From assembly GCA_017999915.1 (NCBI GenBank), contig JAGNKX010000019.1:1-64000 (forward strand): 64,000 nt of DNA, written 5' to 3'. The first letter of the stretch is position 1. Every line of letters begins with the position of its first letter. Below are positions 48,876 through 55,515 of the stretch, piece after piece. The notes beneath the pieces were generated by a model, which saw only the letters and a program-made list of their open reading frames with translations, did not search any database and was not told the DNA's origin. The position numbers and the translations under genes are program-made. This stretch comes from Spirochaetota bacterium. GTDB taxonomy: Bacteria; Spirochaetota; UBA4802; UBA5550.

Positions 48876-50987
48876 ATGCTTAAGGAATACAAAGCTGATC
48901 AAATACGGAATGTCGCCATCGTAGGCCACGGAGGAACCGGTAAATCCACTCTCTTTGACGCAATGCTTCTGGCGGGGGGGAAAATCGACAAGATCGGAAA
49001 CCCCAACCAGGGCACCCTCACATCCGATTATGACGATGATGAAAAGAAAAAAATGATGTCCATACGGAGCGCCCTCGGGTTCGTCGAGCATGACGGGGTC
49101 AAGATAAACTTCATAGATACGCCGGGAACGGCGGATTTCATCGGCGAGGCGCGGGCGGCGGTTCAGGTCGCCGAAACGGTAATCCTGGTGGTCGATTCGG
49201 TTGACGGCGTCCAGATCGAGACTGAAAAGGCATGGCGGTACCTGTCCGAGAACAATATCCCGCGGATCATCTTCGTGAACAAGATGGACAAGGAGCGGGC
49301 CAGCTTCGACAAGGTCATGGAAAACCTCAAGACCGGCCTGAAGGCGAACATTGCGCCGCTGTGCATCCCCAGCGGGGAAGCCGACAAGCTCGCCGGCGTC
49401 ATCGACCTGTACCAGATGAAGCTCCAGACGCCGAAGGGCGGCGGCAAGGACGTTGCAATCGCGGACGTGCCGGCCGACGCGAAGGCGAAGGCCGAGGCGG
49501 AGCGGAACAAGCTGGTCGAGGTGGCGGCCGAAGGCGACGACGCCCTGATAGAGAAATTCCTGGAGGGGGAGGCCCTCACCGACGACGAGATCAAGAAGGG
49601 GCTCCAGGCCCAGCTGGCCAACGCGAAGCTCTTCCCGGTGGTTTGCGGCTCATCACAGTCGGCAATCGGCGTGAAGAACCTCCTCAGCGTGATAAAAGAA
49701 TTCGCGCCGGCGCCGATGATGGGCAAGGAGTATACAGGCCATGACGCCGATGACGCCTCAAAGGAAATAAAAGTGCAATCCGGCGACGGCGGCGCCCTGG
49801 CGGCCGTTGTCTGGAAGACCTACATTGACCAGTACGCGGGCCGGTTCAACTACCTGAAGGTCATATCCGGCAGCATGCTGCCCGATGTCGAGGTATACAA
49901 CGCGAGCAAGAAACACCGTGAGCGGATATCCAAGGTCTACACCATGATTGGGAGCAAGCAGGAAGATATGCCCAAGATCAACGCCGGCGACATCGGCGTG
50001 GTGGTGAAACTCGACAAGACGGCCACCTGTGATACGCTCTGCGACTCGAAGAAGCCGGTGGTGCTTCACATCATCAAGCTCCCGAACCCGGTATTCTCCT
50101 ATGCCATCGAGGTCGTGAACAAGGCCGAGGTCGACAAGGTGGGACAGTTCTTCACCAAGGTCACGGAGGAAAATCCGACCCTGACATATACCTACAGCGC
50201 CGAAACGGCAGAGTCGGTCCTTTCCGGCATGGGCGAGATCCAGCTGGGGATCGTGCTCAATGCTCTCAAAGAAAAGAATAAGATTGAAGTGAGGACCAGG
50301 GAGCCCCGCGTTCCCTACCGCGAGACCATAACCAAGAAGGCCGAATCCAATTACCGCCACAAGAAGCAGTCCGGCGGCCACGGCCAGTTCGGCGAGGTAT
50401 ATATCCGCATGTCACCGAAGCCCCGCGGCTCCGGGTTCGAATTCAAGGAAACCATCTTCGGCGGATCCATACCGAAACAGTATATTCCCGGCGTCGAAAA
50501 GGGCATCGTCGAGGCCCTCGATGAAGGCGTTCTCGGCAAGTTCCCGGTCGTCGACGTCGAGGTGGAGCTCTACGACGGAAAGTACCACGATGTGGACTCC
50601 TCCGAGCTTTCCTTCAAGATCGCCTCGCGCACGGCCTTCAAGCTGGGGATGGAGAAGGCGGGCCCGCAGCTCCTGGAGCCGGTCATGGATGTCCATATCT
50701 TCGTGGATAAGCAGTTCATGGGCGACATCCTGAGCGACGTCACCAGCCGCCGCGGGAAGGTCCAGGGCATGGAGAGCGCCGACGAGACCGGCGGAAGCGT
50801 GTCGGTGATCCGGGCGCAGATCCCCCTGGCCGAGATGCTCCGCTATACCATCGACCTGCGCGGCATGACCAGCGGCAAGGCCACTTTCGAAATGAAGTTC
50901 TCCCACTACGATCCCATTTCCGGACGCGAGGCGGACAACGTCATCGCTGCGCGGAAAAAGCTCCTTGAAGAAGAAGCCAATAAGTAG
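48876..50987 (+). CDS. Elongation factor G-like GTPase (EF-G2 type)
   Basis: 703 residues with the five-domain EF-G layout. The P-loop is GHGGTGKSTL, not the AHIDAGKTT of translocating EF-G. Switch I lacks RGITI and has KKKMMSIRSA instead. IDTPGTADFI (G3) and VNKMDKER (G4) are present. The C-terminal domains are complete (YRHKKQSGGHGQFGEVYIRM, domain IV; LRGMTSGKATFEMKFSHYDP, domain V). This is the EF-G2/EF-G-like subfamily, present as a second copy beside a normal fusA. Its cellular role is unclear; a specialised or stress ribosome role is inference. Not next to tuf or ribosomal genes, which also argues against canonical fusA. Confidence 0.87.
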   Translation: MLKEYKADQIRNVAIVGHGGTGKSTLFDAMLLAGGKIDKIGNPNQGTLTSDYDDDEKKKMMSIRSALGFVEHDGVKINFIDTPGTADFIGEARAAVQVAETVILVVDSVDGVQIETEKAWRYLSENNIPRIIFVNKMDKERASFDKVMENLKTGLKANIAPLCIPSGEADKLAGVIDLYQMKLQTPKGGGKDVAIADVPADAKAKAEAERNKLVEVAAEGDDALIEKFLEGEALTDDEIKKGLQAQLANAKLFPVVCGSSQSAIGVKNLLSVIKEFAPAPMMGKEYTGHDADDASKEIKVQSGDGGALAAVVWKTYIDQYAGRFNYLKVISGSMLPDVEVYNASKKHRERISKVYTMIGSKQEDMPKINAGDIGVVVKLDKTATCDTLCDSKKPVVLHIIKLPNPVFSYAIEVVNKAEVDKVGQFFTKVTEENPTLTYTYSAETAESVLSGMGEIQLGIVLNALKEKNKIEVRTREPRVPYRETITKKAESNYRHKKQSGGHGQFGEVYIRMSPKPRGSGFEFKETIFGGSIPKQYIPGVEKGIVEALDEGVLGKFPVVDVEVELYDGKYHDVDSSELSFKIASRTAFKLGMEKAGPQLLEPVMDVHIFVDKQFMGDILSDVTSRRGKVQGMESADETGGSVSVIRAQIPLAEMLRYTIDLRGMTSGKATFEMKFSHYDPISGREADNVIAARKKLLEEEANK

Positions 50988-51044: not shown

Positions 51045-52316
51045 ATGAACATCATCGTATTTGAAGACGGCCTCCATGATAATTTCTATCCCCTTTCGCT
51101 TACAAAACCGCTCTGGGAACTGCGGTCGGGACTGTACTCGTTTCGTGAACGCCTTGAGCTGTTTATCCGGAAGGACCCGAAGCTTTCCAATGCCGGTCTT
51201 TATTTCTTTACCAGGGAATACCTTGCCCCTTTTTTCAGGGAACGATATCCTCACCTCTCGATAAACGACTATTCCGTGTTCGACGGGAACGGTGAATGCT
51301 TTTTCCTGAATGCCGTTGCCTATCCATCTGCTTCAGACTTTGCCCTTGAGGTAAACAGCGTCGTGATGATGGGCCCGGTGCCGGTGGCGGCGCGGATCGG
51401 CGCGGAGAGTATGCGGAAACCGGAGGATTCGATACCGGCCATGCTGGCGAACCCCGGACTTTCCGTGATTGAATATGACGGTTATCCCGCGGGAACGGGA
51501 AAGGGTCGAAAGGCGGAATACATCTGGGACCTGATGGACTCGAATCCGTGGGCCCTCGGGAATGATTACGCCCTGGCCGGTTTTGCCGGCAACGGCTATT
51601 TGCGAAAAGATGTAACAATTTCCGGCGACGCCACTCAGGTATATATTGAAGAGGAGGCGGCCTTCGAACCCTTTGTGTTCATCGAAGCTTCGGAGGGGCC
51701 GGTCTTTATCGGGGCCGGCGCCAGGATCAATTCCTTTTCCAGGATCGAGGGGCCCTGCATGATCGGCCGTGAATGCGTCATCTACGGCGCCAAGATCAGG
51801 AGCGGATCGTCCATCGGCCCGTTCTGCCGGATAGGCGGGGAGATCGAGCAATCGATATTTCACGGCTACAGCAACAAGTACCATGACGGGTTCATCGGCC
51901 ATTCCTACATCGGCGAGTGGATCAATATGGGAGCCCTGACGACGAACAGCGATTTGAAGAACAATTACACCAATGTCAAAGTGTACACCTCCGCCTCGCG
52001 CAGAAAAACGGGCAGGACAAAGATCGGATGCTTCATGGGGGATTTCGTAAAGACCAGCATCGGCACGCTCATAAACACCGGCTCGAGCATCGGCCCCGGG
52101 GCCATGCTTGTCCACGCGGGGAAGCTGACGCCATGCCATATCCCGTCCTTTTCCTGGTATATCGACGGGGAAACCGGGAGACCGCTCCTCTTCGATGATT
52201 TCATGGCGGTCTGCCGCAGGGCCATGGCGAGGAGAAATGTCGAGGTGTCGGAGGAATTCAGCGCGCTTATGCGGACCGTCTATGACATGACATCACCGGA
52301 ACGGACGCAGCCATGA
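51045..52316 (+). CDS. GlmU-like sugar-nucleotide protein with left-handed beta-helix
   Basis: 423 residues. Starts IIVFEDGLHDNFYPLSLTKP, the opening of the Bacteroidetes-type alternative GlmU family. The N-terminal region (about 1-190) lacks the canonical nucleotidyltransferase motif LAAGxGTRMxS and is probably divergent in activity. The C-terminal left-handed helix hexapeptides run from about 205 to 370 (VFIGAGARINSFSRIEGPCM, ALTTNSDLKNNYTNVKVY). GTLINTGSSIGPGAMLVHAG closes the helix. Expected role: transferase on a hexosamine or related sugar phosphate for envelope synthesis. Overlaps the next gene by 4 bases. Confidence 0.82.
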   Translation: MNIIVFEDGLHDNFYPLSLTKPLWELRSGLYSFRERLELFIRKDPKLSNAGLYFFTREYLAPFFRERYPHLSINDYSVFDGNGECFFLNAVAYPSASDFALEVNSVVMMGPVPVAARIGAESMRKPEDSIPAMLANPGLSVIEYDGYPAGTGKGRKAEYIWDLMDSNPWALGNDYALAGFAGNGYLRKDVTISGDATQVYIEEEAAFEPFVFIEASEGPVFIGAGARINSFSRIEGPCMIGRECVIYGAKIRSGSSIGPFCRIGGEIEQSIFHGYSNKYHDGFIGHSYIGEWINMGALTTNSDLKNNYTNVKVYTSASRRKTGRTKIGCFMGDFVKTSIGTLINTGSSIGPGAMLVHAGKLTPCHIPSFSWYIDGETGRPLLFDDFMAVCRRAMARRNVEVSEEFSALMRTVYDMTSPERTQP

Positions 52317-53218
52317 ACCGACAGGGAGAACTCCAGATATCCCTCACCCTGATCATGTCCTTTTTCATCCATCTGATCGTTATGGTGACGATCATCCTGC
52401 CCCAGATCGGCGATCTATGGGGCTCCCAGAAAATGTTAAAGGACATTTTCGGCGACGAGGGGATCGGAAGGGACATCATTGTCAATATCAACCAGGATGA
52501 CAGGCGGGTCGTGACGCCGGAAACGCTCTTATCGGACAGGGATTCCAGCGCGAAAGGATATGTCACGAGGAAAGCGGGCAAACGGTGGCTCAATAATTCG
52601 CTCGACTTCCGCGTGCTCAAGGGGAGCCAGGGCAAGGGTAAGGGAGATAATAAGTCAGCCGCCGCCCATGCCGGCAGGGACAGGATCATGGTGTCCGATG
52701 ATTCCGAGATGACGGCCGTGATCGAGCGCAATGACAGCGCCGGCCGCGAGGCGGGAAATTACGGCATTTTCGACGAGACGCTCATCCCCGATAAGAACGA
52801 TGTTTCCCGCGAGAATGCCCTTTTCTATTCAAGCGACGGCCGTTTCAGCTTCAACACCGTCAAGTTCAAGGATTTCAAGTATTTCAAGGACATGAAGGAC
52901 AGGATCGCCTCGAACTGGTACCCGCCTCTCATGGCCAACTCCATGGTGCAGGGATACAATCCGCTTTCCGGCGAATACGCCCCGGGATACACGCGCATCA
53001 TGGCGATTCCGAGCCAGGAAGTGAAAACCGTTTTTGTGCTGAACCGGAAGGGCGATATCATACATATCCAGATACTGGATTCCCTGGGGAACAAGCCCCT
53101 CAACGCCTCCTGCTACGACGCGATCAAGCTTTCGAAGGGCTTCGGCCCCGTGCCCAAGGATCTATTAAAGGGCGACGTGCTGGTAATACCTTTTATCTTC
53201 GGCTATTACGTGTATTAA
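52313..53218 (+). CDS. TonB C-terminal domain protein
   Basis: 301 residues. Single N-terminal membrane segment (about 10-31, ISLTLIMSFFIHLIVMVTII). The middle is polar and low in structure (residues 60-200). The last 95 residues match the TonB/TolA C-terminal fold: RIASNWYPPLMANSMVQGYN, then VKTVFVLNRKGDIIHIQILD and NASCYDAIKLSKGFGPVPKD. Partners would be an outer-membrane TonB-dependent or secretin-like protein; no ExbB/ExbD is nearby. Coupled to the GlmU-like gene by the ATGA overlap at 52313-52316 and convergent with the YihY gene (4-base overlap at 53215-53218). The Pro-rich spacer of true TonB is absent. Confidence 0.8.
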   Translation: MNRQGELQISLTLIMSFFIHLIVMVTIILPQIGDLWGSQKMLKDIFGDEGIGRDIIVNINQDDRRVVTPETLLSDRDSSAKGYVTRKAGKRWLNNSLDFRVLKGSQGKGKGDNKSAAAHAGRDRIMVSDDSEMTAVIERNDSAGREAGNYGIFDETLIPDKNDVSRENALFYSSDGRFSFNTVKFKDFKYFKDMKDRIASNWYPPLMANSMVQGYNPLSGEYAPGYTRIMAIPSQEVKTVFVLNRKGDIIHIQILDSLGNKPLNASCYDAIKLSKGFGPVPKDLLKGDVLVIPFIFGYYVY

Positions 53219-55515
53219 TCCTTGTCGATCAGCTCTTTCAGCGTCATCTCGCCGACCGCTTTTCTCCTGCTTGCCGATATCTGGCTGAACAGCTTATCCA
53301 GAAATATCTTGAACGACGACTTGCCCGCTGTCACCGGCATGTCGAGGCTTATGTCCATGATGATGTCGATCACCCTGTTTACCTGGATATTTTCAGACTT
53401 ATTGGCGGGCAGGTAATTGCCGTCGCCGTCCTGGATGATGAGCTTCTCGTCAAGGTACGGCCTGATATACCGGTCGATTTGCTCCGACCCCCCGGCCATG
53501 GCCTTGCGGAGCTCTTTGAGGGAGCTGGCGCCGCCTCCGGACTCGAAGGTGCGGTACACCTGGTGGATCAGCGCCAGACCGTAATAGACGTACAGCTCAT
53601 TCCTTTCTTTGGAGGCCTTTTTAAGGCTTCGGTAGGTGTGGGGATGCATCAGGGTGTATGCCACCTCCGCGCCGAAGAGGATGATGACCGACGAGGCGTA
53701 AACCATCAGCAGGAAGAGCGGAATGGCCGCGAGGGCGCCGTATACCGCGAAGGTTCCGGTGGCGAATCCCTTCACGTACACGATGAAGAGCAGTATAAAG
53801 ATGACCCACACGGCCGCGGTAAAGGACGCTCCCAGCGCCGCGGGCTTGAAGGGAACCCGTGTGTAGGGGAGCGTGATATAGGCCAGCAGGAACAGGAGCC
53901 AGATGAAGGCGAATGGCGCCAGGAAATTGATGATGGTGTATCCGAATTTTTTTCCTTTTTTTACCGGGACCCATTTCTTGCCGAGATCCTTCGACATCAT
54001 GAGGGTTCCCGCGTCGCCGATGGCCCACAGCTTGTCGTTCCGGAAATGGAATGAGTTTATGCGGATGGTGGGAAGCGTCGTTTCCTCCCAGCTTTCACCC
54101 CCGTTGCCTGTGCGGATGACCGTTCCATCGTCTCCGCCCACGACCCCTTCGTCCGGGTTGAAAAACCATGCGGCATAGTAATTTATCTCCTTGTATTTTC
54201 TCGATTCCCATGTTTTGCCGCCATTTTCTGATAAAAGGATCATCCCCTCGTTGCCGACGAGGATGATCTTGTTTTCATTGATGAAAAAGGCATCATGTAA
54301 ATTTACCGGTCGGTTCCTCCGTTTCGCCGACGCTATATGCTGCAGCTCCCATTTTTTACCGCCGTCCTCGGTCCGTATAATGACGCCCCGGCTGCCGGTA
54401 ATGATTCCCCGGTCCTTGAAGAAGGCTATGGAGACCAGGTTCGGCCGTTCCTCCCACTCTTCGACAGACCAGGTGTCCCCGCCGTCGGCGGTCGTCAGTA
54501 CCGCACCGTTTTCGGTGACCATGACGCCGCGGGTATCGGTCAGCATCCGGATCGCATTGAAATTGAAGGCGCCGAATTTCCTTAACTGCCACCGGTTCCC
54601 CCCGTCCGATGTCATGAGAAGTATGCCGTTGTGGCCGATGATCCATCCTTTTTTACCGACGAATTGGACGCCGCGGTACTTTGATTTCATCAATTCAAGG
54701 GGCTCGATGCGTCCTTCCTGCTCCGAGAAGCTCTTGTCGCTCGGCTCATAATAGTATACTTTCTGGTTGTCATAATCGATTTTGCCGCTGTTTGCGACTA
54801 TGTTTTTGAAATCCCATTTTTCCTGTTTCCCGGTGTCAGAGTAAAGTATCGTTGATTTATCGCCGGCGACCCAGAGATGATCGGCATCGGTAATGTAAGC
54901 CGCGTTATAATTTGGCGAGGAGAGGATTATGGAAAGCTGGGTGGCGACGGTCATGCCGGCTGCAAGCATGATGGGGCCAAGGGTCAGAGCGGCCCAGTAA
55001 TAGATGATTTTGAGAAGTATCGGCCGTCCCTGCTTGATTTTCCAGATATCGTTCATCGACTTTTCAAGGGTCCTCAGCATGGCCGTCGCGGAAAAGATCA
55101 TCACGGCGGCGCTTATCCCGCCGATCTTGCCGGCATTTTCAATGAGCCCCAGGATGGTATCGAAGATGGGATCGATATTGAGCTTGATGTTGTTTTCATT
55201 CAGAAACAGCAATATACGATCAAATAATTCCTGCTTGTTTTCACCCACGCCATAATAAAAGGAATAGATGGTAAGGCCCACGGTAAGGGCCGGCACCAGC
55301 GACAGGATAATCGTGTATGTTATGGATGATGCCTTTGTCTGGCAGTCGTCGGTGATGAATTTTCTCGTGGAGACGATAAGCACTTTGGCGGCATTGATTA
55401 TCTTGCTCAATATTCCGCCGGAATTTTCTGCACCGTGATATATCTTCTTGAAGATCGATACTATGGTATTCCAGAAAAAGCGAAGTTTTTGTGTCATTAT
55501 TCCTTTGCCTGGCAT
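53215..55515 (-). CDS. YihY/BrkB-family membrane protein with inserted seven-repeat Ycf48-like propeller
   Basis: 766 residues. Residues 40-200 and 525-660 are the split halves of a YihY/BrkB domain (DDCQTKASSITYTIILSLVP; LEKSMNDIWKIKQGRPIL; FATGTFAVYGALAAIPLFLL; VIILFGAEVAYTLM). Between them, about 205-517, sit seven repeats of the type W-x-x-G-x-x-G-x-I-x-x-T-x-D-G-G-x-x-W. They are centred near 215-234, 290-309, 330-349, 370-389, 416-436, 457-476 and 497-515 (for example GIITGSRGVIIRTEDGGKKW). Ycf48/HCF136 proteins, photosystem assembly factors in plastids, are seven-bladed propellers with the same repeat. A C-terminal wHTH-like tail (660-766) ends the protein. The propeller replaces one loop between membrane helices and probably faces the periplasm. 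AAGGAGCCGTACC sets the start. Confidence 0.85.
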   Translation of the reverse strand: MPGKGIMTQKLRFFWNTIVSIFKKIYHGAENSGGILSKIINAAKVLIVSTRKFITDDCQTKASSITYTIILSLVPALTVGLTIYSFYYGVGENKQELFDRILLFLNENNIKLNIDPIFDTILGLIENAGKIGGISAAVMIFSATAMLRTLEKSMNDIWKIKQGRPILLKIIYYWAALTLGPIMLAAGMTVATQLSIILSSPNYNAAYITDADHLWVAGDKSTILYSDTGKQEKWDFKNIVANSGKIDYDNQKVYYYEPSDKSFSEQEGRIEPLELMKSKYRGVQFVGKKGWIIGHNGILLMTSDGGNRWQLRKFGAFNFNAIRMLTDTRGVMVTENGAVLTTADGGDTWSVEEWEERPNLVSIAFFKDRGIITGSRGVIIRTEDGGKKWELQHIASAKRRNRPVNLHDAFFINENKIILVGNEGMILLSENGGKTWESRKYKEINYYAAWFFNPDEGVVGGDDGTVIRTGNGGESWEETTLPTIRINSFHFRNDKLWAIGDAGTLMMSKDLGKKWVPVKKGKKFGYTIINFLAPFAFIWLLFLLAYITLPYTRVPFKPAALGASFTAAVWVIFILLFIVYVKGFATGTFAVYGALAAIPLFLLMVYASSVIILFGAEVAYTLMHPHTYRSLKKASKERNELYVYYGLALIHQVYRTFESGGGASSLKELRKAMAGGSEQIDRYIRPYLDEKLIIQDGDGNYLPANKSENIQVNRVIDIIMDISLDMPVTAGKSSFKIFLDKLFSQISASRRKAVGEMTLKELIDKD

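Follow-up and report, generated by a model that had tools for sequence, protein, structure and literature searches.

A Ycf48-type beta-propeller inserted into a YihY/BrkB membrane protein of the Spirochaetota

Introduction

The YihY/BrkB family (UPF0761; PF03631, TIGR00765) consists of membrane proteins with a six-helix core, and no proven molecular activity of any YihY protein was found in the literature searched. Ycf48/HCF136 (PDB 5OJ5, 8AM5) is a seven-bladed, extracytoplasmic Asp-box propeller, free or lipid-anchored, which binds D1 from the lumenal side through an Arg patch on its top face (PMC10403576). YCF48-related proteins of the same propeller family are also encoded in non-photosynthetic bacteria (plasmid-borne in Rhizobium, Pseudomonas and Massilia). 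Asp-box repeats are likewise found in Sortilin/Vps10 (PF15902), whose propeller is larger, with ten blades.

Here we describe a gene, in a 64,000-nucleotide stretch of a spirochaete genome (the window), in which a Ycf48-type propeller lies within a YihY/BrkB protein. The family is known, but the architecture is new; among the openly available papers searched, none was found that names YihY and Ycf48 together, or YihY in spirochaetes.

Results

The gene (53215..55515, complement strand, coordinates and strand exact) is one uninterrupted open reading frame of 766 amino acids with an ATG start. BrkB (PF03631) matches in two stretches flanking an insert (151 bits, cut-off 33.7) and PSII_BNR (PF14870) in four stretches inside it (108 bits, cut-off 27), and the same two-sided BrkB and internal PSII_BNR matches are found in 27 of 27 members of the A2 set. 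The protein also passes TIGR00765 (113.9 against 73.15 bits). It shares a C-terminal extension with the fusion family PRK04214, but scores far under the cut-off of that family (140.6 against 500) and of PRK01637 (123.6 against 307). An earlier note, made from the DNA letters, had described a YihY domain split by a Ycf48-like seven-bladed propeller, which these matches and the fold comparison below bear out. It had put the insert at residues 205-517; the position between the YihY halves is correct, while the limits are about 203-521, with the join shown by the propeller-less orthologue described below.

The N-terminal half of the YihY core (TM1-TM3; residues 45-198; 54922..55383, complement strand, as for all parts of the gene below) matches PF03631 over residues 56-199 and has predicted helices at 60-88, 131-158 and 166-198. 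The propeller (residues 203-521; 53953..54909) occupies the TM3-TM4 extracytoplasmic loop, which is longer by about 320 residues than in other YihY/BrkB/UPF0761 proteins. The C-terminal half of the core (TM4-TM6; residues 524-630; 53626..53946) contains the second PF03631 stretch and helices at 524-548, 556-585 and 590-623. It is followed by a putative cytoplasmic Rrf2-like winged-helix domain (residues 643-766; 53218..53589), modelled as helix-helix-helix-wing, with a profile match to the Rrf2-family protein 4cic_A over 647-767 (E 7e-5); PF02082 is below reach in the window protein and is matched in some relatives. The gene product is most likely an inner-membrane protein in three storeys, with a winged helix, a YihY/BrkB core and a periplasmic propeller. 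The source genome also encodes a second, plain YihY of 320 amino acids (L170:3687-4649; G000:C11:173815-174609), and this pair of paralogues recurs in several relatives.

The AlphaFold2 model of the propeller alone (residues 198-526; pLDDT 93, pTM 0.91) has seven four-stranded blades, its closure being judged from the strands, the pTM and the fold matches rather than by inspection of the model coordinates. The earlier note had named failure of a seven-bladed propeller to close as a reason to abandon its reading; a closed one is predicted. In the full protein, modelled with a 27-sequence alignment, pLDDT is about 90 for the propeller and about 50 for the membrane core, whose six helices are of low confidence. 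Blade 1 (residues 203-238; 54802..54909) has four strands in the models and a degenerate Asp-box (SDTGKQEKW). Blades 2 (280-314; 54574..54678), 3 (319-353; 54457..54561), 4 (360-393; 54337..54438), 5 (406-440; 54196..54300), 6 (446-480; 54076..54180) and 7 (485-519; 53959..54063) are each defined by the models and an Asp-box. The motif [ST]x[DN]xGxx[WF] occurs six times in the insert, against at most three in any of 20,000 shuffles of the insert, and only seven times when the 64 kb window is translated in all six frames. The seven motif copies counted previously thus correspond to seven blades by structure but only six canonical Asp-boxes.

Between blades 1 and 2 there is an excursion (residues 239-279; 54679..54801) with an IDFxNQ motif, modelled as an additional two-stranded hairpin (residues 246-266), in which D247 is invariant across a 47-protein alignment. 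An eight-blade reading, with the hairpin as half a blade, was rejected as the less probable since Ycf48 fits better and has the same blade register. The first twelve Foldseek matches are all Ycf48/HCF136 structures (TMt 0.69-0.76, rmsd about 3.3-5.2 Å; top match Ycf48, TMt 0.72-0.76), with eight-bladed designs ranking after them (TMt 0.60-0.65), and sequence profiles also give Ycf48 (E 4e-26). Sequence identity is 19-21% to Ycf48/HCF136 and 26-32% to the YCF48-related proteins of non-photosynthetic bacteria, where the alignments are confined to the propeller. The Sortilin/Vps10 profile reaches 44 bits; both sequence and fold agree better with Ycf48, and membership of Sortilin/Vps10 was rejected, there being seven blades rather than ten.

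The propeller differs from Ycf48 in being looped into a membrane protein, in its extra hairpin and in most of the Arg patch. Scored over six Ycf48 residues (R180, R196, R215, R219, R220 and R237), the patch is represented by R376 at the R196 position, an arginine kept in 60% of the order; the R180 position is Asn, the R237 position is Glu, and the loop corresponding to R215-R220 is basic, though without residue-by-residue alignment. The Ycf48 equivalog PRK13684 is not reached (102 bits, cut-off 326), and no D1/D2 reaction-centre gene (PF00124) was found in the source genome or 43 relatives, with a Synechococcus control positive. On these three grounds the protein was rejected as a Ycf48 equivalog, to which the photosystem II role of Ycf48 does not extend.

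Outside the Asp-boxes, D247 (100%) and K220 (82%) are conserved in the propeller. The top- and bottom-face loops differ weakly in charge (+0.6 and -6.5 per 100 residues) and entropy (2.39 and 2.46), and no strong binding surface stands out from these two measures. The fused protein is the sole PSII_BNR protein in almost all genomes of the order.

The side of the membrane on which the insert lies can be judged from the loop charges. The N-terminus (14.7 K/R against 6.8 D/E) and the loops at 153-168 and 549-558 (3.0/0.8 and 1.9/0.1) are positive, whereas the loop at 89-130 is net negative (4.8/6.3). This distribution agrees with the positive-inside rule and supports a periplasmic location for the propeller, as the earlier note had proposed. 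Together with the six modelled helices, it would fit a core with both termini on the cytoplasmic side. In the model the linkers are about four residues long: TM3 ends at 198 and the first strand begins at 203, and the last strand ends at 519 and TM4 starts at 524. The start of strand a and the end of strand d in a propeller blade share one face, the top, and an insert entered by strand a and left by strand d therefore has both ends there. With linkers this short, the top face would lie against the membrane or the core, and the D247 hairpin, a d-to-a excursion, would be on the top face also. Strand order and topology, rather than contacts, which are not visible in the low-confidence core, thus point to a propeller that covers the outer mouth of the core with its top face downward. 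The predicted geometry would be that of Ycf48 on D1. A propeller simply presented outside the membrane, as first suggested, is right as to the side, but a cap lying on the core fits the topology and four-residue linkers better than a free-standing domain.

The same domain order was sought in related genomes, and the search of 59 relatives gave 33 genomes of the order, the source included, with the fusion in one open frame; in the other 32 the protein is 40-78% identical to that of the window. The named records, MAGs of Spirochaetota/Spirochaetia, come from many projects and were assembled by different groups. Sampling across the phylum gave 59 proteins with the fusion, in 12 family codes (Spirochaetota MAGs), and in all 59 an insert of 316-401 residues is at the same TM3-TM4 junction. 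The fused-profile searches cover the Spirochaetota, and confinement of the fusion to the phylum is not implied. Among 72,556 plasmid records, no place covers 80% of the fused protein. In one genome (G009; L022:5698-7843) the fused gene is broken into three frames, either as a pseudogene or by sequencing error.

Propeller inserts of one family code (f34: L137-L145, L151, L152 and L155) are strongly diverged and 348-401 amino acids long. The divergent inserts of this family match a propeller HMM built without them (E 6e-5 to 3e-20), and the C-terminal winged helix is missing from five of its proteins (L140, L141, L143-L145). Most divergent inserts also have a recognisable K-[IV]-D element some 40 residues after the insert begins, at the position of the excursion between blades 1 and 2, and its presence speaks for common descent. 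A sister YihY group without a propeller (f15: L147, L148, L149, L150, L153, L154 and L027), presumably Brachyspira-like and with a GC content of about 28%, has an insert of 110-158 amino acids in the TM5-TM6 outer loop (e.g. L149, residues 257-411) with no Pfam match; this is a second outer loop that accepts inserts. In a spirochaete of another family, a 1491-aa open frame (G070:C234:9258-10934) has several tandem matches to Ycf48-type propellers.

In a tree of 95 YihY cores, from which the insert was left out, the fused state is explained by two changes, a single gain and a single loss, and the fused clade has an SH-aLRT of 89. A single origin of the insertion is favoured by this tree, though not proven. 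The insertion was probably gained in the ancestor of a large part of the Spirochaetota, is old, and has been cleanly lost at least once. The absence of the gene from two further genomes (G001 and G002) was not scored as a loss, since its neighbour there is lacking or lies at the edge of a contig.

The loss is seen in a genome of the same genus (G005), where the orthologue L021 (468 amino acids) is missing exactly the propeller (join RISTALST/MTFVRTIINF). L021 sits inside a set of four with 100% support in the core tree, is 65% and 61% identical to the window protein on the two sides of the insert, and lies at the same locus with the same neighbours, at 127 kb within a contig of 303 kb. No PSII_BNR protein was found at any other place in its genome. 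Of 111 conserved core positions, 103 are unchanged in L021. Of the eight changed, four are in outer loops, which is unremarkable beside the other rows of the alignment, and a fifth is the deleted junction glycine. With a core dN of 0.16 and a dS of about 1.5 (near saturation), the L021 core is under purifying selection, and therefore functions, or is at any rate maintained by selection, in the absence of the propeller. Retention of both core and neighbours marks the propeller as an accessory module. In two comparisons between species the dN of the propeller is 3-7 times that of the core (0.19 against 0.028 and 0.37 against 0.12), against a propeller dS, near saturation, of 1.5 and 1.6. The faster change would fit a partner-binding domain.

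In the window the gene stands alone, divergent from the bS21 gene and convergent with a gene for a 301-aa protein with a weak C-terminal TonB_2 match (52313-53218), with which it shares four bases at the stop codons; synteny of this TonB-like gene with the fused gene is found in 28 loci. An EF-G-like GTPase gene (48876-50987, 703 aa) is in conserved synteny in 25 loci. As these neighbours are convergent or divergent, no functional link is drawn despite the order-wide synteny. No operon partner was found in an order-wide comparison of neighbourhoods, so no particular ligand is supported.

Discussion

The reading that we favour, while rating it a little below an even chance, is that the propeller caps the periplasmic mouth of the YihY core and serves there in docking and gating; the core's own function stays unproven. 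The top face and the conserved IDFxNQ hairpin would contact the core or the lipid surface, while the fast-evolving outer side would recruit a periplasmic partner, either a protein or an envelope polymer, and this recruitment would couple YihY activity to that partner. The activity itself would probably be directed at a membrane lipid or at a substrate linked to a lipid. This substrate is a guess, prompted by a single report, a YhjD suppressor reportedly described in Kdo-depleted E. coli by Mamat et al. in 2008, and like the docking and gating role it is unproven. The earlier note had imagined a sensor or scaffold on a channel-like core; the outward orientation stands, and the terms sensor and channel-like go beyond what is shown.

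That the propeller might instead be a built-in assembly chaperone, holding an envelope protein or YihY itself as Ycf48 holds D1, is doubtful but deserves some weight, since its nearest fold is Ycf48 and both would turn the same face to the membrane. Against it, the Arg patch is mostly not conserved, and both reaction-centre proteins and a linked client gene are absent. A transmembrane one-component regulator, in which the propeller binds a periplasmic signal, YihY transmits it and the winged helix acts on DNA, would have its three domains in the right compartments, and the Rrf2-family match of the C-terminal domain, with PF02082 in some relatives, is in its favour. However, the putative recognition helix (the third helix, residues 676-690) is acidic, with a mean of 1.7 K/R against 4.1 D/E in the order, several fused relatives have no winged helix, and the propeller-less orthologue retains it, indicating that the two domains are not obligate partners. 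Judged from these sequences, a DNA-binding sensor-regulator is unlikely and is given a small probability.

A neutral or weakly constrained insertion, kept because it is harmless in a permissive loop, would explain the tolerance of this loop for long inserts, the different insert in the next outer loop of the Brachyspira-like relatives, the clean loss in G005 and the faster evolution of the propeller than of the core. It is nevertheless improbable, as 12 family codes retain the propeller, its dN is far lower than a near-saturated dS, and it has conserved residues (D247 and K220) that are not part of the Asp-boxes. The possibility that two genes were joined by an error of frame or assembly, raised by the earlier note, has nothing in its favour but the three-frame gene of G009; it is refuted by the single open frame in 33 genomes of the order from different assembling groups, and its probability is negligible.

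In a bolder reading, a Ycf48-type assembly propeller that spirochaetes have tethered for good to a YihY core could form a cis-acting assembly and docking machine for their envelope, a proposal that we regard as a long shot. If it were true, the YihY family, which is present in 10 of 14 control genomes, would be the membrane platform of a general, unrecognised step of envelope assembly, served elsewhere by separate partners.

The fusion extends Ycf48-type propellers beyond photosynthesis in a tethered arrangement. With an apparently single origin, it may mark much of the Spirochaetota. For the very widespread YihY/BrkB family, a folded extracytoplasmic domain fused to the core offers a clue to function, since it hints at which side and which face of the protein matter and where docking would occur, and the natural deletion of the propeller within the same genus is a ready-made comparison.
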